Positions 5,796 to 27,607 of a stretch of 27,607 nucleotides of DNA are shown piece by piece (position 1 is the stretch's first letter; each line of letters opens with the position of its first letter). The notes under the pieces were generated by a model. The model saw only the letters and a program-made list of their open reading frames with translations, was not told where the DNA came from and made no database searches. Made by a program: the position numbers and the translations under genes. Origin of the DNA: a virus; the IMG/VR virus record IMGVR_UViG_3300042507_005356, positions 1 through 27,607 of that record. One strand, written 5' to 3'.

Positions 5796-8423
5796 ATGGC
5801 ACTGAAAGTAATTGAATTATTGGTTGATGACGCTTTAACAGGTGATACAAGAGTTGAAGAGATTGCTCTGGTATTACAACCAGCGATTGAAACTGAATTT
5901 ATGTGGTTCGGGAGACAATCCTTTGAAACCTATAATGACTATCCAAAAGCAGCAAAAGAAAATGCTTGTAAGGTATTAAGATGGAGAGACGAGCATGGTG
6001 ATGATGTTCAAGGAATGACCCAAGTCGGTTGGACAAGAGCAAATCAACTTTGTAGTGGAGAAAACATTTCAAGAGAAACCATTGCCAGAATGAGTGCGTT
6101 TATTAGACACAAACAAAACTCACAAATTGCTCCTGAGTTTCAAGGTGAACCTTGGAAGGATGCAGGTTATGTTGCTTGGTTAGGTTGGGGTGGAACAGAA
6201 GGTGTTGAATGGGCACAAAGAAAATTACAACAGATTGATGAAGCCATGGCAATTGATACCTCAAATCTTAAACCTTGGTCAAAAACAACAGGTGATACTG
6301 AGATGTGTGGATGTGGTGAGAAGACATATCAGATTCTTGAAGAAGGTCCATGTTGGGAAAACTATATTATGATAGGTTGGAAGAGAAACGCTGAGGGTCA
6401 AAAAGTCCCCAATTGTGTTCCAAAAGAGGAGTTATCAGCCTATGAGCTTGATGTTTTTGGTTATAAAACGAAGTATTTTTACATCTGTCCTGGCGCTCAA
6501 GCAACCTTTAAGGACATAATGTCTGTTAAACCAACAGAAGATAGTATAGGAATGATTAGGTCTGCAGCTGTTGTTGCTGATAAAGTGTTTGAAATTGAGG
6601 CAGATGTCCTTGAATATAAGACAGCTAGTGAAGACCAACTATCTGAAGCTAAGGTTTTGGTTGAAGATTTCAAAGATATCATTGGTGAGATTGAGAAGAT
6701 TCAAGGTAAGACATTTGATGTGTCTTATATGGATAATCATATCAAGGTAATTGAAGGGTATGTTGGTCAAGAGAATATGGCATATCCTATTGGTCAGATA
6801 CAGAAGGGAACAATAATTGACCAAGGTAGTGATTGTGGTTGTGGTTGTCCTGATATGGAAGGTTGTTGGGATAATGGTGGAACATACTTTGGAACAACAA
6901 TGATTAACGGGGTACCAGTATTTGATAACCCTGATGAAGCTGCAACTTACGCAGAAACAATTGGTTGTAATGGTTCACATGTACACATGGTAGATGGTGT
7001 TGAGATGTATATGCCTTGTACAATTCACGACCAAGCAATCAATGAAGATGATGAGGAAGATGAACTAGCAGAATATACTGAAGAAGAGTATGAGGTAGCT
7101 AAACTATTACAATACCTATCAAAAACAGACAAACAAAAGTTTGAAGCAGTTATCGCTTCAATGAGGGGTTCAACTCTTCAAGAAATTAAAGACAGAGACC
7201 ACAAGACCCCAACAATATACTTCAAGTATGAGAGGGTATTGACTGGTTCACCTGATAGAGAATTCTGTGATAGTATTGAAGGAAGATATTTTAGAAGATT
7301 GGAGATAGACCTTTTAAGAGATACCAATCGTGATTTTGGTCATAACAGAGAGCCATATTCCAAGTGGTTATATAAAGGTGGACCTAATTGTGTTCACGCT
7401 TGGAGAAAGTTTTTGGTTCAAGGAAAAGATGTTGTTGATGAAGGTTTTGCACAAGGTAAAGCAGGAATGCCACCTAAGTCAATGCCGAACAATGGATACT
7501 ATTCAGAAGAAACCAAAAAAGCAAGTGAGAGAGCTTATGCGATATCACAATCACAGAAGATGACCAGAGCTTCTTCACAGGTTATCATTGTTGATATGGA
7601 TGATACTTTGGTTAGAGGTAATTCCCCAATCAAAAAAACCATAGATTATATTAATGATAAAGCTAAGTCTTATAGAATCGTTGTTGTATCAGGAAGACAA
7701 AAATCAAGAACAGAAGAAACCAAAAGACAACTTGATTCACTTGGGGTATTGTGGGACGACATCTATTTGTCTGATTTCCCTATAGGTCCAAACTCATCAA
7801 ATGCATTCAAGGAATACAAAGCTAAATGGTTAAGAGAAAAAGGTTTTATGATTGTGGAAGCAATTGATAACGACTCTGAAGCTAGAAGACTTTACCAAAG
7901 AGCAGGTGTTAGAGCGGTATCCCCAACCTCACTATCTGCTAGTTTCAATAAGTCAGCTCAGTTTTCAATCAACGAGGAACAAAGAATGTTATATTCACCA
8001 GCAATGAAACCTGGTATTTTGATTCCAAGGATTGATGAAATGACGAGAGAGAAGTATTTTGTAACATTCAAACCTGAAACAATCAAGGTAATGAGTCAAA
8101 GATTTCTTATTGAGAAAAGAACAGACAAGACAAACTATGAACATTCAGACCAAAAGTTTGGTGGGGTTTACTTGGTTGAATCTTGGATTGTAGACGGGGA
8201 ACAAGATAAAGCCTATTCAATGGGTTATTCAAAACAAGATGTTCCATTGGGGACATGGATGGTTGGATATAGGATAGACAATGACGAAGTATGGGATATG
8301 ATTAAGCAAGGAAAAGTCAAAGGTCTATCAATTGAAGGAAATTTTGAGTATAAGTTTTCGGTAGAAAAAACTGATGAATATTTACTTAAAGAAATCATAA
8401 ACATTTTAAATCAAACAAACTAA
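5796..8423 (+). CDS. Multidomain head protein: XkdF-like prohead protease with inserted HAD phosphatase-like domain
   Basis: Modules in order of its 875 residues: about 45-145, a Trp-rich helical domain (ETYNDYPKAAKENACKVLRW; AWLGWGG); about 165-215, a Cys-rich segment with PCWENYIMIGWK; about 340-410, a Cys/His segment with CGCGCPDMEGCW and MYMPCTIHD; about 470-545, a MuF-like piece (GSPDREFCDSIEG; GGPNCVHAW); about 596-720, a HAD-type domain with D600-x-D602-x-T604 (DMDDT), VVSGR near 630 and DND at 691-693; about 739-850, an XkdF-type serine protease domain with candidate catalytic His783 (NYEHS) and Ser845 (GLSIEGNF). The XkdF family processes scaffold and capsid during head maturation, which fits the following scaffold and capsid genes. 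The roles of the extra modules are inferred. No internal stop or frameshift is seen. Confidence 0.8.
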   Translation: MALKVIELLVDDALTGDTRVEEIALVLQPAIETEFMWFGRQSFETYNDYPKAAKENACKVLRWRDEHGDDVQGMTQVGWTRANQLCSGENISRETIARMSAFIRHKQNSQIAPEFQGEPWKDAGYVAWLGWGGTEGVEWAQRKLQQIDEAMAIDTSNLKPWSKTTGDTEMCGCGEKTYQILEEGPCWENYIMIGWKRNAEGQKVPNCVPKEELSAYELDVFGYKTKYFYICPGAQATFKDIMSVKPTEDSIGMIRSAAVVADKVFEIEADVLEYKTASEDQLSEAKVLVEDFKDIIGEIEKIQGKTFDVSYMDNHIKVIEGYVGQENMAYPIGQIQKGTIIDQGSDCGCGCPDMEGCWDNGGTYFGTTMINGVPVFDNPDEAATYAETIGCNGSHVHMVDGVEMYMPCTIHDQAINEDDEEDELAEYTEEEYEVAKLLQYLSKTDKQKFEAVIASMRGSTLQEIKDRDHKTPTIYFKYERVLTGSPDREFCDSIEGRYFRRLEIDLLRDTNRDFGHNREPYSKWLYKGGPNCVHAWRKFLVQGKDVVDEGFAQGKAGMPPKSMPNNGYYSEETKKASERAYAISQSQKMTRASSQVIIVDMDDTLVRGNSPIKKTIDYINDKAKSYRIVVVSGRQKSRTEETKRQLDSLGVLWDDIYLSDFPIGPNSSNAFKEYKAKWLREKGFMIVEAIDNDSEARRLYQRAGVRAVSPTSLSASFNKSAQFSINEEQRMLYSPAMKPGILIPRIDEMTREKYFVTFKPETIKVMSQRFLIEKRTDKTNYEHSDQKFGGVYLVESWIVDGEQDKAYSMGYSKQDVPLGTWMVGYRIDNDEVWDMIKQGKVKGLSIEGNFEYKFSVEKTDEYLLKEIINILNQTN

Positions 8424-10937: not shown

Positions 10938-12887
10938 ATGAGATTACAATGGAAAGGTCGTTCATATAGACCAGCAACAAACTTTGTTAGAGTTTACAAA
11001 CCCGATGTTAATGAACTGATGAAACCATTATCAATGAAATCTGGTTTGGGTTCAGCAATCCTTACAGGTCAATACATTTCAGGTAATGGAAATCAACCTG
11101 ATGTTCCTGTTGTTTCTCCTAGTCCGACCGCAACAGCTCAACCGACACCCACTCCGAGCATTACAGCTTCACCAACTTTAACCCCATCCATCACTCCATC
11201 CTCAACGCCATTCCCATTCGTTCAACCAAGTCTATGGTTTGATGCTTCTGATAGCACAACTATGAACTTGATATTGTCGGGTGGAACAACTTATATTTCA
11301 CAACTTACATCTAAAGGAACAAGTAATTGGACTTTAACAGGTCAAACATCTGATAGATACCCAACTTATTCTGCTTCAACATCATTACCTGGTAGTCCAA
11401 ACATTATTAGATTCACACCAAATGCTCTTCCGACTTTGAGAAAAGGTTTGGTAGCTTTTGATAGACCAACTTTAACACATACTGGTTCAACAATCTTTAT
11501 GGTTTGGTCTCAACCAGCTGGAAGCCCCGCATTCATAAATCAATTATATTCAGGTAATACGAATGGAACATTGGTTCAGAGTGGTACAGATACATTGGAT
11601 AGATTACAATTTGGAGCAATAGCAACAAATATCCAAAATACAAATGTATATCCACAATCAACAGCTCAAAGTGCTGGTGTACCACCACCTTTTTCAGCAA
11701 CAAACTTGAATGGTAAATATTTGATGAAAGCTGTTTTACCTGCTAATCCAGGTTATGGTAGTTGGGAATTGAACCAATCGGGTGGAACAGGAACACTATT
11801 ATTTACAGGAACAACAGTAACTCCTCAGTGGAATGCATTTAACCTTGGTTGTACTTCTAATAACACACAACAATTATATAGTATCAACAACAACATTGAA
11901 TTAGCCGAAATGATGGTCTATAACTCTGAATTGACTTCAGCAGAACAAGAAGCTGTTGAACTTTATTTAAGAGACAAGTGGAGATATGACGAATGGGCAT
12001 CACCTGTTCCGACTCCTACGGCAACTCCTCAGGTTACTGCGACTCCGACCGCAACTCCTCAGGTTACTGCGACTCCGACAAACACCCCGACTCCAAGTGG
12101 TGTTCCTGCAAGTGGAACAACTGAGGCTCAAACTTATTTAAGAGCTGTAGTTGATGGCGGTGGAACAGGGATAACATCTACAGTATCTGCGGCTACAATA
12201 ACATTATTCACATCATTGGTATCAAATGGACTATGGGATAAAATGATAGCATTCTATCCAATGTTAGGGGGTAATAGTTCAGGTTGTAAGTTTAACGGTA
12301 AAAACCCTGTTGATACGGACGGAGGTTATAGATTGGTATTTAATGGTGGTTGGACTTTCAATTCTTCGGGCTCAACCTCTAATGGAAGTAATGCTTTTGC
12401 TAACACTTTTTTAACTGCTTCAACAATAACTCCGTTGAACTCCCAACATATGAGTATCTATTTGGGTAGTAATGTTGCACCAGCAGCTGGTAAAACATAC
12501 GCAGGAGTAGCAAGTTCTGTACCTCATTATTTTGTTATAGGACAAGACGGAACACCGAGATATTTTTATGGTGTAGGTGATAATGGTATTTTAACTAGTT
12601 TAACTCCTAACACACAGGGAAATATAACAATATCATCAAGTGGTAGTACGAATAGTGCTTTATATAAAAATGGTGCTTTCATTTTTAATGGTTCAAACTC
12701 AAACGCAAACACAATACCATTCTCAATATATTTGGGAGCAATGAATAACGCTGGAACTGCTATACAATTCTATAACAACGAATTTAGATTTGCTACAATG
12801 GGAGGGGGATTAAGTACACCTGAAGTATCTACTTTATCAACAATCATAAACACTTTCCAAACAACTATAGGAAGAAATACATATTGA
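10938..12887 (+). CDS. Modular fibre/adhesin-like protein with two lectin-like domains and Pro/Thr linkers
   Basis: 649 residues. The N-terminal 45 residues (RPATNFVRVYKPDVNELMK) probably anchor it to the virion. A Pro/Thr linker (about 58-92) leads to a concanavalin/LamG-like jelly-roll (about 95-350) that opens with PSLWFDASDSTT and closes with ELAEMMVYNSELTSAEQEAV, the usual end of LamG-type domains in phage proteins. A second linker (about 355-390) contains a 10-residue tandem repeat. A second beta-rich domain follows (about 393-649; AFYPMLGGNSSGCKFNGKNP, IPFSIYLGAMNNAG), also LamG-like. Binding of surface polysaccharide is inferred from the fold family. The small genes downstream start within 1-2 bases of each other, suggesting one transcript. 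Confidence 0.65.
   Translation: MRLQWKGRSYRPATNFVRVYKPDVNELMKPLSMKSGLGSAILTGQYISGNGNQPDVPVVSPSPTATAQPTPTPSITASPTLTPSITPSSTPFPFVQPSLWFDASDSTTMNLILSGGTTYISQLTSKGTSNWTLTGQTSDRYPTYSASTSLPGSPNIIRFTPNALPTLRKGLVAFDRPTLTHTGSTIFMVWSQPAGSPAFINQLYSGNTNGTLVQSGTDTLDRLQFGAIATNIQNTNVYPQSTAQSAGVPPPFSATNLNGKYLMKAVLPANPGYGSWELNQSGGTGTLLFTGTTVTPQWNAFNLGCTSNNTQQLYSINNNIELAEMMVYNSELTSAEQEAVELYLRDKWRYDEWASPVPTPTATPQVTATPTATPQVTATPTNTPTPSGVPASGTTEAQTYLRAVVDGGGTGITSTVSAATITLFTSLVSNGLWDKMIAFYPMLGGNSSGCKFNGKNPVDTDGGYRLVFNGGWTFNSSGSTSNGSNAFANTFLTASTITPLNSQHMSIYLGSNVAPAAGKTYAGVASSVPHYFVIGQDGTPRYFYGVGDNGILTSLTPNTQGNITISSSGSTNSALYKNGAFIFNGSNSNANTIPFSIYLGAMNNAGTAIQFYNNEFRFATMGGGLSTPEVSTLSTIINTFQTTIGRNTY
12021..12080 (+). 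repeat. Two tandem 30-bp repeats in a Pro/Thr linker
   Basis: Bases 12021-12050 and 12051-12080 are identical except for the last base. Each encodes ATPQVTATPT, so copy-number change keeps the frame. The same TPQVT core recurs in linkers of other proteins in the window. Confidence 0.9.
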
Positions 12888-12888
12888 T

Positions 12889-13140
12889 ATGAGTGAATTA
12901 GTCGCTATTTTAACAATTAATCAGAAGGATAGTTTAGAAGGACAATTAGTTTGTCCCGATGTTTTTTTTAATCCAACACTTGATGTAAATCAGGATTGGT
13001 TTATATCACAAGAAGAGATAAACAATTCAATTTATCCACAACATGATTGGATAAAGGATTTAACTTTATCAGTTTATGCAGGTCCTTATGTACCGCCTCA
13101 ACCGACACCTGTTCCGTCTGGTTCAACAACCAACATCTAA
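12889..13140 (+). CDS. Small protein of the fibre block, unknown function
   Basis: 83 residues, starting one base after the previous stop, so probably translated from the same message. It has an acidic, aromatic body and a short Pro/Thr tail (PPQPTPVPSGSTTNI) that looks like the beginning of the linkers in its neighbours but ends at once. The stretch LDVNQDWFISQEEIN resembles an EF-hand-like D-x-N-x-D loop, but only loosely. I do not recognise the family. It could be a fibre-associated protein or chaperone, or a remnant of a longer linker protein. Confidence 0.6.
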   Translation: MSELVAILTINQKDSLEGQLVCPDVFFNPTLDVNQDWFISQEEINNSIYPQHDWIKDLTLSVYAGPYVPPQPTPVPSGSTTNI

Positions 13141-13142
13141 TT

Positions 13143-13436
13143 ATGGTAAACTATATTATTTTTATCAATGAGCAAGAAGCTCAAAATTTAATCACAAGAA
13201 TCAATACTTGTATGGGTTATCCATCTGCTGGAACAACTACCTATATGACTTCTCCTGATGTTATGTGTGAGTTTGATTTGGAAACAGGTGAAAAACAAAA
13301 CATTGGATATGGTATTTTGATTAAAGATTTTATTCTTGATTGTTTAACAACTCAAGAAAAAGAAGAAGTATTTGCACTTCCTTCAAACATTAACACTTGT
13401 TCCTATGTGGTTTCAGGAGCAACAGAGAATATCTAA
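13143..13436 (+). CDS. Small protein of the fibre block, unknown function
   Basis: 97 residues. I chose the ATG at 13143, right after the previous gene's TAA, rather than an in-frame ATG at 13047 that lies inside that gene. The start follows CTAATT, exactly as for the next gene. The N-terminus MVNYIIFINEQEAQNLITRI is an amphipathic helix pattern, and the C-terminus SGATENI resembles the upstream gene's SGSTTNI. The family is not recognised. A fibre accessory or assembly role is only positional. Confidence 0.6.
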   Translation: MVNYIIFINEQEAQNLITRINTCMGYPSAGTTTYMTSPDVMCEFDLETGEKQNIGYGILIKDFILDCLTTQEKEEVFALPSNINTCSYVVSGATENI

Positions 13437-13438
13437 TT

Positions 13439-15022
13439 ATGTCTCAACAAAGGAGAGTATTTTTAAAGACTTGGTGGAGTCCATATCTTGGTGAGTGGAG
13501 ACCATTCCACGACAATTATATCTATGCTTACAACACAGGTTGTACCTTCTCAGGTAGTGCTGTGTTTACGCTTGTGCCTCCTACTCCGAGCATTACACCA
13601 ACTTTGACGATGACCCCAACGCCAAGTGTAACAACTACTCCAAGTATTACTCCTTCTTTAACCCCTACGGAAACTCCACAAATCACACCATCAGTAACCC
13701 CAACAATTACAAACACGCCATCAATTACGGCTTCAGAAACTCCAACTTTAACACCTTCAGTTACGCCTACGACTACTACTACATTGACTGCAACTCCTAC
13801 GAGCACACCTGAAGCCACAACAACAAACACTCCTACTTTGACGAACACGCCAACCCCGAGTGTTACTCAAACGCAAACTGCTTCAAGTACACCGACTTTA
13901 ACTCCTACGACAACTACAACTTTAACATCAACACCTGGTCTTACACCTAGCCCAACTAACACTGCAACTCCAACTAGTACACAACCTATATTCAGCCCAT
14001 CATCACTCGGAAATCTTCAGTATTGGTTCAAATCAGATGAGGGAGCAACTGAATCTAGTTGGACAAACTATGGTTTAATTGGTTCAGCACTAACTCAATC
14101 GGTTGTTGCCAACCAACCAACTATTGTTGCTAACAGTACTTGGGGTGATTCATACACAGGACAGAGTGTATTTTTCGGTAGTCGTGATTTTATGGATTTA
14201 AGTCATCCAAGTTCAGCGACAACATTTACAGGAAAAACATTCTTTTTCGTATTAAAAGTTACTCAAAAAAGTATACAAGGATGGTCAATCAATGTACAGA
14301 ATGGACCAGTATATACGAGTACAAATAACATTTGGGATTATCAAGTTTTTGATGGTACTTTAACATCCATATCAAGAAGTAAACCTACAAGTAGACAATT
14401 CAATTTTACAACAGGACATACATTGTATGCCTCATCTGGATTAACAACCACAGGGTTCACTGCATCTGTTAACGATATTATTGGAACATCGGGAACAACA
14501 ACTTATAATGGTGAAATTGCAAACTTTATAAATTTTGGATATGACCCAGGTTTTTCTAATACAAATAGTATATCCGTATTTGAATTCCTTGGTTATAATA
14601 GGTTATTAACCCAATCTGAATTTAACCAAGTGTTGAATTATCTTAAGACAAAGTATAACTATTCAACCCCTCCTGTTACTCCGAGCGTGACTCCTACGAG
14701 AACACCAGCGGCAACTCCGACTTTAACACCTAGTCCGACCTCAACAATTCCTGTAACACCGTCAGTGACTCCGACAAGGACAAGTCCATCGTATTTATAC
14801 TATAATGTTGAAGCTTATGATAAATCATCATGTGCTCTTGTAACAACAGGTGTTCTTAAAATTGAAACACCAGCAAGCTTAACAATTGGTTTCCATTATT
14901 GTAATAGTGCTTCAACTTACAAATATAAACTATTGAGCCTAACCTCAGGTCCATCTTCAAATTTCCAAATGAATGTTCCTTGGGTTGGTCAAGCAAGCTG
15001 TGGAGGATTAACTTGTATTTAA
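13439..15022 (+). CDS. Modular fibre/adhesin-like protein with a very long Pro/Thr linker and a LamG-like domain
   Basis: 527 residues. I chose the ATG at 13439 because an earlier in-frame ATG (13397) lies inside the preceding gene, while 13439 follows its stop by two bases. Modules: an N-terminal anchor (1-45; RRVFLKTWWSPYLGEWRPFH); a Pro/Thr/Ser linker of about 140 residues (about 46-186), the longest in the window; a concanavalin/LamG-like domain (about 187-405; NLQYWFKSDEGA at its start, VFEFLGYNRLLTQSEFNQVL at its end); a second linker (about 408-447); and a Cys-containing C-terminal module (about 448-527; ending SCGGLTCI). The layout suggests a flexible stalk presenting two sugar- or surface-binding heads. 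Ligands cannot be read from the sequence. Confidence 0.65.
   Translation: MSQQRRVFLKTWWSPYLGEWRPFHDNYIYAYNTGCTFSGSAVFTLVPPTPSITPTLTMTPTPSVTTTPSITPSLTPTETPQITPSVTPTITNTPSITASETPTLTPSVTPTTTTTLTATPTSTPEATTTNTPTLTNTPTPSVTQTQTASSTPTLTPTTTTTLTSTPGLTPSPTNTATPTSTQPIFSPSSLGNLQYWFKSDEGATESSWTNYGLIGSALTQSVVANQPTIVANSTWGDSYTGQSVFFGSRDFMDLSHPSSATTFTGKTFFFVLKVTQKSIQGWSINVQNGPVYTSTNNIWDYQVFDGTLTSISRSKPTSRQFNFTTGHTLYASSGLTTTGFTASVNDIIGTSGTTTYNGEIANFINFGYDPGFSNTNSISVFEFLGYNRLLTQSEFNQVLNYLKTKYNYSTPPVTPSVTPTRTPAATPTLTPSPTSTIPVTPSVTPTRTSPSYLYYNVEAYDKSSCALVTTGVLKIETPASLTIGFHYCNSASTYKYKLLSLTSGPSSNFQMNVPWVGQASCGGLTCI
13577..13990 (+). repeat. Long degenerate TP/TPS repeat coding for the Pro/Thr linker
   Basis: About 138 codons dominated by Thr, Pro and Ser in 6-10 residue steps (e.g. 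TPTPSVTTTPSITPSLTP). Synonymous codons vary freely, so the protein repeat is better conserved than the DNA repeat. This argues for selection on the peptide rather than recent slippage. Confidence 0.85.
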
Positions 15023-15023
15023 T

Positions 15024-16058
15024 ATGGCATATTCAGTAATCATAACATTAACAGATATGGGTTCAGCAGTTGGACCTTTTGACCTTTATTCAGATGTGGA
15101 TAACTATGCAACCCCATTTGAATCAAACATACCTGCGTCAGCCTTTACCTTTGGTTATTTCACAACCCTTGTCCCAAATAACACACTTACCATCAAGGTT
15201 CAATCACAAGGTGAATGTGTGAATTTCATATTAGCTGTAGTTGAGAATTTACCAACATCAACTGTAACCCCGACCGTTACATCCACTCCGACTAGAACAC
15301 CTGGTGGAACACCACAGGTAACACCTACGCAAACTAATACCCCATCAGTTACTCCAACTTGTGGAACATTTACAGTTCAATATCTTAAATCAGAATTGCA
15401 AGGTAATAGTCAAATTAGATTTAGACTATACAACGATGCAGGATTTACAAGTAATGCTAATGCTGTTTGTGATTATACCTTTACAGGAACATTTGATATC
15501 AATGGAGGGGCTATAAATCAGCCATATTCAACGGTAATGGCTACAAATGACCATGACCATTCTTTTAATGCAGGTAGTCAAATAACAGCTTATACGATAT
15601 CTACAATTACTTATGCTTGTCCTTGTGTTAGTGTTATTTCAAATCTAATCACACCGACGCCGAGTCCTACCACAACTCAGACAGCGACCCCAACTTTGAG
15701 TTTAAGTGCTTCGCCAACCCCTACCCCTAATGTTACTCCAACTCCGAGCACAACTGAACCTGGTGGAACACTTTATGTTTACGCTAGATTTGTGAATACA
15801 AGTCAGGAGTTTGGTTATAGTTTAAATGGTGGTAGTTACATTGCAATTGGTCAACCTGGTAGTTCATCTTGTGTATTCGTTCATACGATTACTGGACTTG
15901 TAAATGGGGATGAAATTGACTTTTCTACACTACTTACTTGTGGTATAAATGGTGATACTGCCGATTGTCCTAACTCAGTTAGTGGATGTCTATATACTCA
16001 CTTCTTTGTGAGTACAACGAATGTCTACATAACTGTTGATGGAAGTGTTTGTTGTTAA
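15024..16058 (+). CDS. Three-module fibre-block protein with Pro/Thr linkers
   Basis: 344 residues, starting one base after the previous stop. Three beta-rich modules are separated by two linkers: about 1-76 (MGSAVGPFDLYSDVDNYATP, one Cys); a linker about 76-111 containing TPQVTPT; about 112-207 (QIRFRLYNDAGFTSNANAVC, ending ACPCVSVI); a linker about 208-244; and about 245-344 (TLYVYARFVNTSQEFGYSLN), rich in Cys at its end (CGINGDTADC, finishing VCC). The first module resembles small beta-sandwich domains common in uncultured aquatic Bacteroidota phage fibres. A receptor-binding or decoration role is inferred from the company it keeps. Confidence 0.6.
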   Translation: MAYSVIITLTDMGSAVGPFDLYSDVDNYATPFESNIPASAFTFGYFTTLVPNNTLTIKVQSQGECVNFILAVVENLPTSTVTPTVTSTPTRTPGGTPQVTPTQTNTPSVTPTCGTFTVQYLKSELQGNSQIRFRLYNDAGFTSNANAVCDYTFTGTFDINGGAINQPYSTVMATNDHDHSFNAGSQITAYTISTITYACPCVSVISNLITPTPSPTTTQTATPTLSLSASPTPTPNVTPTPSTTEPGGTLYVYARFVNTSQEFGYSLNGGSYIAIGQPGSSSCVFVHTITGLVNGDEIDFSTLLTCGINGDTADCPNSVSGCLYTHFFVSTTNVYITVDGSVCC

Positions 16059-20273: not shown

Positions 20274-20585
20274 TTAATTTAATTTATGTTTTTTATTGAA
20301 CTGTTCTGCCACATTTTGTGATGTGTCGTACCCAAGTTTTTGTAATAATTTCCTTGCTCCAATGAAATCTGATTCAGTAATCTTTGAAAATTTCAAGTGA
20401 GCATTATCCCCATCATCATCTTTATCCTTCTTGGTGAAGTGTCTCTTACACCTTGAGGATTTTCCCCAACTACTTTTATTATCTTTATAGAAATCCTTTT
20501 CAGGTCTATACTGTCCACAAATGGTACAAAAGTAGCTAACACCATTTTCTTTATCCCAAATCCTTCTGTTTATCAAATCCTTCAT
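20274..20585 (-). CDS. Zinc-finger-like protein with C-terminal LLQxLGY domain
   Basis: 103 residues. A probable zinc site is formed by Cys20, Cys23, Cys46 and His49 (CTICGQYRPEKDFYKDN ... SRCKRHFTKK), a spacing reminiscent of HNH/recombination-type zinc knuckles but without a clear nuclease motif. An acidic linker (KDKDDDGDN) leads to a C-terminal helical domain (GARKLLQKLGYDTSQNVAEQ) that is paralogous to the N-terminus of the 60-residue protein at 19763-19945. First gene of the - strand run, divergent from the replication gene, with a good promoter-like pair upstream. A DNA-binding role is inferred. Confidence 0.65.
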   Translation of the reverse strand: MKDLINRRIWDKENGVSYFCTICGQYRPEKDFYKDNKSSWGKSSRCKRHFTKKDKDDDGDNAHLKFSKITESDFIGARKLLQKLGYDTSQNVAEQFNKKHKLN

Positions 20586-20590
20586 AATAA

Positions 20591-20621
20591 TAAATATAGT
20601 TATTTGGAAAATAAATCAAAA
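20591..20621 (-). promoter_or_regulatory. Promoter-like pair (TTTTG, 18 bases, TATATTTA), - strand
   Basis: TTTTG (20621-20617) and TATATTTA (20598-20591) precede the ATG at 20585 by five bases. The last base differs from TAnnTTTG, and the short leader is unusual. Confidence 0.5.
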
Positions 20622-20634
20622 TATTTCACATTTT

Positions 20635-20665
20635 TTTGGAATAAATTTTTTTTCTCTTATATTTA
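20635..20665 (+). promoter_or_regulatory. Promoter-like pair (TTTG, 19 bases, TATATTTA), + strand
   Basis: TTTG (20635-20638), a 19-base spacer, TATATTTA (20658-20665), 18 bases before the ATG at 20684. It uses the same -7 variant as the divergent - strand promoter 40 bases away. Confidence 0.6.
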
Positions 20666-20683
20666 TAATAAAAACAAATAATT

Positions 20684-21517
20684 ATGAGTAAATTCAGTCC
20701 TATGCTACACGAAGAGGTAATAGCTTGTTTAAGAACATTAGATGACGATACACTATCGTCTATCATGAGAATGATTTTTGATTGGAATGATGGTATTGAA
20801 GTAAAACCAAAAACACAACTTGAAAAGTTTGCTTGGGCTTTAGTGCTTCCAAAACTTGAACAAAATAGAGAAAACTACAATGCAAAAGTAAAACAGACAA
20901 CAGAAGCAGCAAACAAAAGATGGAACAAAAACACGGATACGAACGCATCCGAACGAATGCGTGAGAAACCTAACTATAACTATAACTATAACTCTAGTAA
21001 TAATTCTTCTAAAGAAGAATTATTAAATAATAAACAACCTCCTTCGTCTGTGGACGAGTCGGTTGTTTCTAAGGGGTTGGAGAGTCTTGAAAATATTTTC
21101 CCTCAAGGAAGAAACTATGTTGGAATTGACGAAGTCAATTTATGGAATAGTTTGACCCAAGAACAAAAAAAGGTTATGATTAAAAGGGCTTCAATGTATA
21201 TCAGAAACGAAAAGAAAAAAGATGAAGGGAAATATATCAAAGGAATGGGTAAGTGGATGCGTGAACAATGTGAGAAAGGTTTGGAGGAAAAACAACCTTC
21301 AATGAAAAACTCAACGAAGGCTGATGACCCAAGGTTATTGAAGATGACCGATGGGTCAATCTACTCAATCCTACTTGAAAAAGTATCAGGACAAACTAAA
21401 CAAGCTGATAAACTCTATTATCTCCTCAATAAGAAGGAAATGTTCACAAGTAAGGGTGAACTACTAACCTTCGTAACATCTCTCAACCAGAGGGAAATAA
21501 ATGACCTTATAAACTAA
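20684..21517 (+). CDS. Replisome organiser / replication initiator-like protein (DUF6291-like N-terminus)
   Basis: 277 residues. The N-terminal about 75 residues (FSPMLHEEVIACLRTLDDDT; FAWALVLPKLEQNRENYNAK) match the DUF6291-type domain found at the front of many phage replication initiators, followed by KRWNKN, as usual before a variable linker. The linker (about 85-135) is low-complexity (NYNYNYNSSNNSS; PPSSVDESVVSKG). The C-terminal domain (about 140-277) is helical and may contact the helicase or loader. The DNA coding for the linker contains tandem repeats and a large palindrome that look like a replication origin, as in phage lambda's O gene. Assignment is by pattern and position; no helicase or primase is in the window. 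Confidence 0.65.
   Translation: MSKFSPMLHEEVIACLRTLDDDTLSSIMRMIFDWNDGIEVKPKTQLEKFAWALVLPKLEQNRENYNAKVKQTTEAANKRWNKNTDTNASERMREKPNYNYNYNSSNNSSKEELLNNKQPPSSVDESVVSKGLESLENIFPQGRNYVGIDEVNLWNSLTQEQKKVMIKRASMYIRNEKKKDEGKYIKGMGKWMREQCEKGLEEKQPSMKNSTKADDPRLLKMTDGSIYSILLEKVSGQTKQADKLYYLLNKKEMFTSKGELLTFVTSLNQREINDLIN
20934..21057. other. Candidate replication origin inside the initiator gene
   Basis: Visible elements in order: two tandem 10-bp units CGAACGCATC / CGAACGAATG (20940-20959); two overlapping inverted repeats, CGGAT..ATCCG (20934-20951) and ACGCAT..ATGCGT (20943-20962), mutually exclusive as hairpins; 3.7 copies of AACTAT (20972-20993); a 28-bp palindrome with 13-bp arms (20998-21025); an A/T-rich run; and TCGTC-TGTG-GACGA (21044-21057). 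This is a GC-rich island followed by AT-rich DNA, in the linker-coding part of the gene. Confidence 0.45.
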
Positions 21518-27014: not shown

Positions 27015-27607
27015 ATGGAGCTTTATTTAACATACCACAAAGTTTTAGATAAATTACAATCATTCCAAGAAAACTATTGTTGTCTTGAATCATTTGGTTA
27101 TGGCAACCTTGTTGACTTTGGAAAGAATGTTTCAGGTCAGACAGTAACTTACCCCTATCTATTCGTTGTTCCTTTGTCTGTTTCTTACGACCAAAATACA
27201 ACAACATATCAATTATCTGTTCTCTTTGCTGATAGACTAAATGAAAATCTTGATAACGAAAAAGATGCTGTTTCTGATATGTCCTTAGCAGCAAGACAAT
27301 TGTTATCTGAAATATGGAGGGGTAATCTACAAGACTTTTTTGAAGCACCACTACCTGTAAATGGACAACCATTTATGGAGAGATTCAATGACTATGTTGC
27401 TGGTATTGCAATTGACCTTAACCTTACAGTTATGGAAGATATCAACGCTTGTGAGCAGTGGTTTGTTACACCTAGCCCCACCCCGACTTTACCTTTAACT
27501 CCTACCGTCACCCCGACCAATAGTTCAACTCCACAAGTAACACCAACTAATACTGGAACTCCACAAGTTACCCCAACTAATACTGGAACACCTCAGATTA
27601 CACCTAC
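27015..27607 (+). CDS. Tail-associated protein with Pro/Thr linker, 3' partial
   Basis: Open at the right edge; 197 residues visible from ATG at 27015. Residues 1-150 form a helix/strand domain (MELYLTYHKVLDKLQSFQEN; FLWD-like aromatic patches; PYLFVVPLSVSYDQNTTTYQ; FEAPLPVNGQPFMERFNDYV) that resembles small tail-completion-type proteins following chaperone genes. From about 150 it becomes a Pro/Thr linker (TPSPTPTLPLTPTVTPTNSS) with 10-residue tandem repeats TPQVTPTNTG, the same style as the fibre block 11-16 kb away. What follows the linker cannot be seen. The long reading frame on the opposite strand is a shadow. Confidence 0.7.
   Translation, partial: MELYLTYHKVLDKLQSFQENYCCLESFGYGNLVDFGKNVSGQTVTYPYLFVVPLSVSYDQNTTTYQLSVLFADRLNENLDNEKDAVSDMSLAARQLLSEIWRGNLQDFFEAPLPVNGQPFMERFNDYVAGIAIDLNLTVMEDINACEQWFVTPSPTPTLPLTPTVTPTNSSTPQVTPTNTGTPQVTPTNTGTPQITP
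27528..27607 (+). repeat. 30-bp tandem repeat in the Pro/Thr linker, running off the edge
   Basis: Units 27528-27557, 27558-27587 and a partial third from 27588. They encode TPQVTPTNTG with a few silent changes, and the third unit reads TPQITPT. Unit length and peptide match the repeat at 12021-12080. Confidence 0.85.

Follow-up and report, generated by a model that had tools for sequence, protein, structure and literature searches.

Iteron origins embedded in the gene of the initiator are known from the phages lambda and SPP1. In lambda, four 18–19-bp iterons and a 38-bp AT-rich tract lie in the middle of gene O (PMC3349717, PMC7466680). In SPP1, oriL is placed in gene 38, where direct repeats and an AT-rich unwinding element occur inside the gene of the origin-binding protein (PMC6316719). 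Hairpins in origin DNA are recognised as single strands for priming at ssiA and ssiB of RSF1010 (PMC4434180), and the RepA_N initiators of Gram-positive plasmids and of the PLE satellite bind semi-palindromic direct repeats (PMC7145576).

Here, we analysed a fragment of a viral contig (IMGVR_UViG_3300042507_005356; its whole 27,607 nt are called the window) in which the linker-coding part of a putative initiator gene holds DNA-conserved tandem repeats, an adjacent AT-rich element of low stability, and two hairpins (Table 1). On sequence grounds, this region is very probably a phage replication origin embedded in the linker-coding part of its own initiator gene, and by its layout it is to be classed with the lambda/SPP1-like, initiator-embedded iteron origins.

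Table 1. Features of the candidate origin region (window coordinates)
Feature	Position	Strand	Description or basis
Divergent intergenic region upstream of the initiator gene	20586–20683		ORF map; transcription direction switches
Putative replication initiator gene	20684–21517	+	277 aa
Iteron block, presumed initiator-binding sites	20935–20964	+	three GNATNC hexamers exactly 10 bp apart
Presumed DNA unwinding element	20970–21030		nearest-neighbour duplex stability scan; 18% GC
Tandem AACTAT hexamers, first part of the presumed unwinding element	20971–20996	+	sequence, repeat search
Hairpin/cruciform I	20998–21025		13-bp arms; alternatively 12 pairs and a C-G-closed TAAA loop
Hairpin II	21034–21066		ACAACC .. 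TTCGTC (TGTG) GACGAG .. GGTTGT

Like the origins of lambda and of Stx phages, the locus lies in the middle of the initiator gene and places tandem iterons before an AT-rich, presumably unwinding tract. Unlike in lambda, the units are 10 bp apart, 6-bp repeats and a pair of covarying hairpins come after them, the putative initiator belongs to DUF6291, and no P-like loader was recognised beside it. The initial annotation had likened the region to gene O for its in-gene iterons followed by AT-rich DNA and a palindrome; the first two likenesses hold, whereas a lambda palindrome behind them is not described in PMC3349717 or PMC7466680. SPP1 oriL also combines repeats with a weak AT-rich element within the initiator gene, but SPP1 also possesses another origin (oriR) and encodes a loader and a helicase of its own, and conserved hairpins are not described in the passages of PMC6316719 covered here. 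Lambda and SPP1 both have a loader gene beside the initiator gene, whereas no helicase loader, helicase or primase was recognised among the window proteins scanned, the window being a fragment and the small neighbours belonging to no known family.

The ssi sites of RSF1010 offer a model for a possible role of hairpins I and II, although RSF1010 has its own primase, RepB', and one site per strand, neither of which was seen in the window (no primase of the RepB' kind was recognised among the proteins scanned). The likeness to RepA_N systems lies in semi-palindromic direct repeats as initiator targets, binding being presumed in the window; the PLE repeats differ in being non-coding, and DUF6291 has no sequence or fold match to solved structures. 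A DnaA-dependent origin was considered and rejected. There is no DnaA-box cluster in the window, where 8 loose boxes (6.2 expected) are scattered, and no DnaA-box enrichment points to another origin within the 27,607-nt fragment; one beyond its ends is possible.

The DUF6291 protein and its relatives

The DUF6291 domain (Pfam PF19808) occupies amino acids 7–82 at the N-terminus of the window initiator (E = 4.7e-11) and scores 43.1 bits against a curated cut-off of 27.2. The AlphaFold2 model, built with 19 sequences, has a helical N domain with one long helix (45–91), a linker (about 92–128) predicted to be disordered with pLDDT under 50, and a helical C domain. The iteron block encodes the last part of the long helix together with the first linker residues, and the hairpins encode the remaining linker.

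Relatives of the window protein match PHROG families of replication initiation, O-like, primosomal and DnaD-like proteins, and the O-like phrog_345 is matched by 4 of 19 DUF6291 proteins. The sole convincing PHROG match of the window protein itself is phrog_16304, of unknown function; no PHROG annotated as an initiator was matched at a convincing E-value, and the O-like families, which would have indicated membership of the lambda O family, gave no convincing match. Because the window protein is without a direct functional match, its initiator role is deduced through these relatives. In Flavobacterium phages, a primase gene lies directly downstream of the DUF6291 gene, which carries GCGAACGCAT and GATAGT-type repeats. 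Foldseek returned nothing significant for the DUF6291 fold in the PDB, which has no related solved structure, so that DNA binding by DUF6291 is presumed; against viral models it returned other DUF6291 proteins and replisome-organizer proteins, with poor whole-chain superposition. DUF6291 is not mentioned in the literature searched, a partial set outside subscription papers, and on it the initiator family is, as far as we found, undescribed.

No meaningful match was obtained among GenBank phages by tblastn with the window protein or blastn with the region. The divergent neighbour of the initiator gene (20274–20585) encodes a small minus-strand protein with weak endonuclease VII matches, whose C-terminus is similar to that of a protein encoded just upstream of the initiator gene in the relative L002 (3517–4014). 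Elsewhere in the window, positions 5796–8423 encode a single 875-aa protein, apparently a fusion, with polynucleotide-kinase-like and head-maturation-protease family matches. Long proline-threonine repeats (PTPTPTNTPT) occur in several virion-region proteins (10938–16058 and 27500–27607), have a strong negative GC skew and are shared with L002 (1–620). A near-identical phage from another sample (L001, 6674–8837) extends past the right end of the window and completes the gene truncated at 27607.

Iterons and the weak stretch behind them

The iteron block reads GGATAC GAAC GCATCC GAAC GAATGC, and its unit can be written as GNATNC plus four bases. It includes both of the tandem 10-bp CGAACG units of the initial annotation (20940 and 20950), and neither CGAACG nor CGTTCG occurs elsewhere on either strand of the 27,607 nt; the GNATNC-N4 triple at 20935 is likewise the only one in the window. 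The 10-bp repeat score was reached in 1 of 5000 synonymous-codon resamplings with the phage's own codon usage. The block is also the GC-rich island noted before (53% GC, in the 1% stable tail of the window). The two competing inverted repeats that had been described do exist in the block, which is explained by the near-dyad form of the iteron units, but they are not kept in L002 (68% identity in the best segment), where the units form a perfect 10-bp tandem repeat instead.

Behind the iterons, the AACTAT hexamers (20972–20995) and the A/T-rich run were found as annotated. The hexamers are in frame (NYNYNYN), and 6-bp repeats behind iterons are also present in relatives and in unrelated initiator genes. 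Hardly any 60-bp stretch of the window has a less stable duplex than 20970–21030 (the fraction of equally long windows that are less stable is given as 0.000). Reading the hexamers as a DnaA-trio was judged by eye to be a poor fit.

The period of the repeats was followed through IMG/VR by scanning for three CGAACG copies with period 10, the counts being those among the matches listed and hence lower bounds. At least 101 carrier ORFs were listed, and 61 of these 101 match families related to replication initiation: 61 match phrog_21423 (unnamed), 60 phrog_3729 (replication initiation) and 15 DUF6291. With the frame-compatible control period of 9, the families among the matches listed were mainly tail fibre and collagen-like, and none was a replication-initiation family. 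Most CGAACG triples in chromosomal contigs are from GC-rich genomes and look like chance.

The IMG/VR loci had been selected by the repeat pattern itself, so a second set of DUF6291 genes was drawn solely by HMM. It came from 196 genomes of the class to which a Ruminococcus genome belongs and from 395 of that of an Echinicola genome. Among the 22 distinct genes so picked, lags of 10, 20 and 30 stand above the synonymous null (z = 5.4, 3.7 and 4.5), followed by lags 6 and 9 (z = 2.2 each) and lower values for the remaining lags; all nulls used here take related genes to be independent. Among 15 proteins whose domain ends in RW, 11 have GNATNC pairs with 10-bp spacing, as do 0 of the 17 others (Fisher's exact test, P = 1e-5, an optimistic value because the motif was chosen after some of these genes had been seen and the genes are related). 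GRP-type DUF6291 proteins tend to have AACCC or AATCC repeats instead. The type of iteron appears to track the end of the DUF6291 domain, a lead for initiator–iteron binding.

In four loci (L343, L344, L345 and L346), the frame stops right after DUF6291 while iteron-like and 6-bp repeats run past the stop codon, and in L266 and L285, CGAACG arrays likewise lie outside a long frame. Protein selection cannot explain repeats beyond a stop codon; recent truncation could in part. The short proteins of L343–L346 are possibly stand-alone DNA-binding proteins with a free-standing origin.

Two other arrangements of the repeats were seen. Initiators of the phrog_3729 type (L025, L026, L028, L054, L067, L096) often have two CGAACG arrays about 150–255 bp apart, one in the linker and the other in the N-terminal domain, where it fixes the residues SNATERGRTQ. 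Tandem 10-bp ACGAACGATT repeats in chromosomal genes of unrelated bacteria (Saprospiraceae, Sunxiuqinia, Echinicola, Facilibium; L260, L263, L269, L276, L289) encode NDYERLRTITNDYERL-like stretches that lie close to the C-terminal end and immediately precede a helix-turn-helix-like segment; these repeats have the core and period of the phage iterons in a different protein family.

Two hairpins and their covariation

The 28-bp palindrome of the initial annotation is exact, TAATAATTCTTCT-AA-AGAAGAATTATTA; no other perfect inverted repeat in the window has arms of at least 11 bp within 60 bp. The annotated interval (20934–21057) contains it and ends inside a second hairpin that had not been described. 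Of 2000 synonymous resamplings, 1 produced a 13-bp hairpin arm somewhere in the gene, and 3 of 1000 reached the joint fold of the stretch that spans both hairpins. Folded as single strands of DNA, the two hairpins are much more stable than dinucleotide shuffles, whichever strand is taken.

Homologues were found by a search with the C-terminal domain, giving eight distinct sequences with the window included, and all eight keep hairpins I and II in the same order with changed arms. The arms have become CAATACATCT/AGATGTATTG in L333 and AATAATATATCT/AGATATATTATT in L338, and those of hairpin II read GAAGCCC/GGGCTTC in L340; covariation in hairpin II consists of G-C/A-T/C-G exchanges in L333, L337, L338 and L340. 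In the alignment of the eight, 92.9% of cells are paired and 10 of 25 pairs have double changes. There are 23 double-sided compensatory cells against 8.0 ± 2.0 in shuffled alignments, a number reached in 0 of 500 shuffles, and slid controls came out far lower; misalignment of L339 in hairpin II lowers the count. Hairpin I alone has 5 pairs with double changes (11 double-change cells, 3.8 when shuffled). Each of the 8 homologues folds better than its own synonymous resamplings (z from −1.8 to −4.3, Stouffer −9.4). A covariance model of the two hairpins matches all homologues at 68–103 bits, and matches to other initiator loci are weak and mostly partial.

The residues encoded over the hairpin arms vary (NSSKEEL to NTSKDVL, NISNDIL and NISEDIL), and in L002 the palindrome core is unchanged across an adjoining 9-bp in-frame deletion. 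In the iterons and hairpin I, all 14 of 14 comparable codons have identical synonymous third bases, compared with 42 of 57 domain codons (one-sided P = 0.024). The initial annotation had asked for an alignment with relatives and would have given up its reading had they lacked the repeats and the palindrome; the relatives keep both at the DNA level while linker residues change, which argues for selection on DNA and not protein. As these comparisons show, the iteron DNA is under selection, as is base pairing in both hairpins, and the same layout recurs in many phage initiator genes. The 3' end of L002 and the 5' end of L309/L339, contigs of one sample, share about 120 bp of overlap where the hairpins lie; the assembly thus seems to break off at the presumed origin. 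We found no description of conserved tandem hairpins in in-gene origins in the partial literature covered, and on that basis they are undescribed as far as we found.

The hairpins might act as RNA in the initiator mRNA, in translation, stability or antisense control, with only the iterons and the AT-rich part serving the origin. We regard this as possible but unlikely. It leaves the main explanation intact for everything else in the region, the stem-loops lie within a transcribed gene, and covariation alone cannot separate RNA from DNA. UNAC-type loops are known RNA folds, and hairpin I is closed by C-G around TAAA, TAAC or TGAA loops. However, G-T occurs in just 2 of about 183 paired cells and nearly all changes swap Watson-Crick pairs for one another, the pattern expected where both strands of the DNA are important; this leans toward DNA over RNA without deciding. 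Moreover, no Rfam family came near its gathering score for the hairpin region, which has a mid-gene position away from the start site and no T-run behind it.

The exact 20-bp palindrome core was found at 13 IMG/VR loci, nearly all in linkers of initiator-like genes, and in L310, L311 and L314–L317 the flanking N- and C-terminal domains are unrelated and the upstream repeats differ. Such a pattern would fit a recombination joint where initiator N-terminal modules swap, the hairpin being kept for promoting exchange. This is improbable, since a homology joint needs no pairing, whereas pairing is kept despite base changes in L333, L337 and L338, and a second hairpin of changing sequence is kept too. 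The probabilities given to the alternatives are not mutually exclusive as regards the hairpins.

Beyond the homologues, 94 distinct CGAACG-array genes listed contain 39 perfect hairpins whose loops are four bases long, where codon permutation gives an expectation of 9.3, and 16 of the 39 have a C(TRAM)G loop (0.74 ± 0.79 expected). The loop is also present in a Rhizobium phage, in the initiator gene of a Mycobacterium phage and in the HMM-sampled L350. It is recurrent, not universal. Its polarity (16 against 0 in reverse) was discarded as strand evidence, as coding constraint explains it and the null expects 0.00 reverse loops.

Proposed initiation and what it would mean

We infer initiator binding, melting and origin activity. 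The DUF6291 domain would bind the 10-bp-spaced iterons on one helix face, and the initiator–iteron complex would melt the adjacent weak stretch; these two steps are modelled on lambda and SPP1 (PMC3349717, PMC7466680, PMC6316719). The exposed strand or strands could then fold into hairpins I and II, and, more speculatively, the hairpins together with the C-terminal domain of the initiator might help to place helicase and primase of the host, on the model of RSF1010 ssiA and similar priming hairpins (PMC4434180). Loading or priming the replisome is our best guess for the role of the hairpins. The priming idea has a single basis: the loop includes a CTA or CTG trinucleotide, at which several bacterial primases start (PMC5204125). 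Tentatively, and with more doubt than confidence, this may extend to many dsDNA phages without their own replisome, in which one or two in-gene hairpins, often with a C(TRAM)G loop and standing behind iterons and a weak stretch within the initiator gene, would load or prime the host replisome after melting.

The GC-skew check proposed with the initial annotation gave a cumulative local minimum at 20710 (18–24 kb), but it is not usable as evidence because the coding strand flips at the same place.

Iteron initiators often autoregulate too, and the iterons could be an operator, perhaps an internal one acting as a roadblock, through which the DUF6291 protein controls its own gene while replication starts elsewhere. 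The 10-bp ACGAACGATT repeats in a chromosomal family that is not obviously replicative (L263, L269, L276, L289) would be in line with this. Nevertheless, an operator would account neither for the weak stretch nor for the fixed positions of two covarying hairpins, nor for the match of period-10 arrays to initiator families, and we give it a slightly smaller chance than the recombination joint. That the repeats are a by-product of a low-complexity polar linker, through codon repeats and slippage and without DNA function, is the least probable alternative and already largely refuted: although the linker is disordered and the in-frame AACTAT hexamers could arise by slippage and protein tolerance, the 10-bp iteron period rotates the frame and stands out against synonymous nulls, the hairpin arms covary while residues change, and the repeats persist outside the frame in L343–L346.

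An origin within the initiator gene would provide a sequence rule by which phage origins could be located without experiments, namely 10-bp-spaced units, then 6-bp repeats, then hairpins, in the linker of the initiator. DUF6291, a domain of unknown function in phages and prophages of Bacteroidia and Clostridia, would gain a likely function and a testable DNA code, and covarying hairpins are possibly an overlooked part of in-gene origins. If the hairpins do load or prime the host replisome, a single-strand initiation signal would be built into coding sequence and added to a double-stranded phage origin. Host primase could be tested directly on the loop motif.
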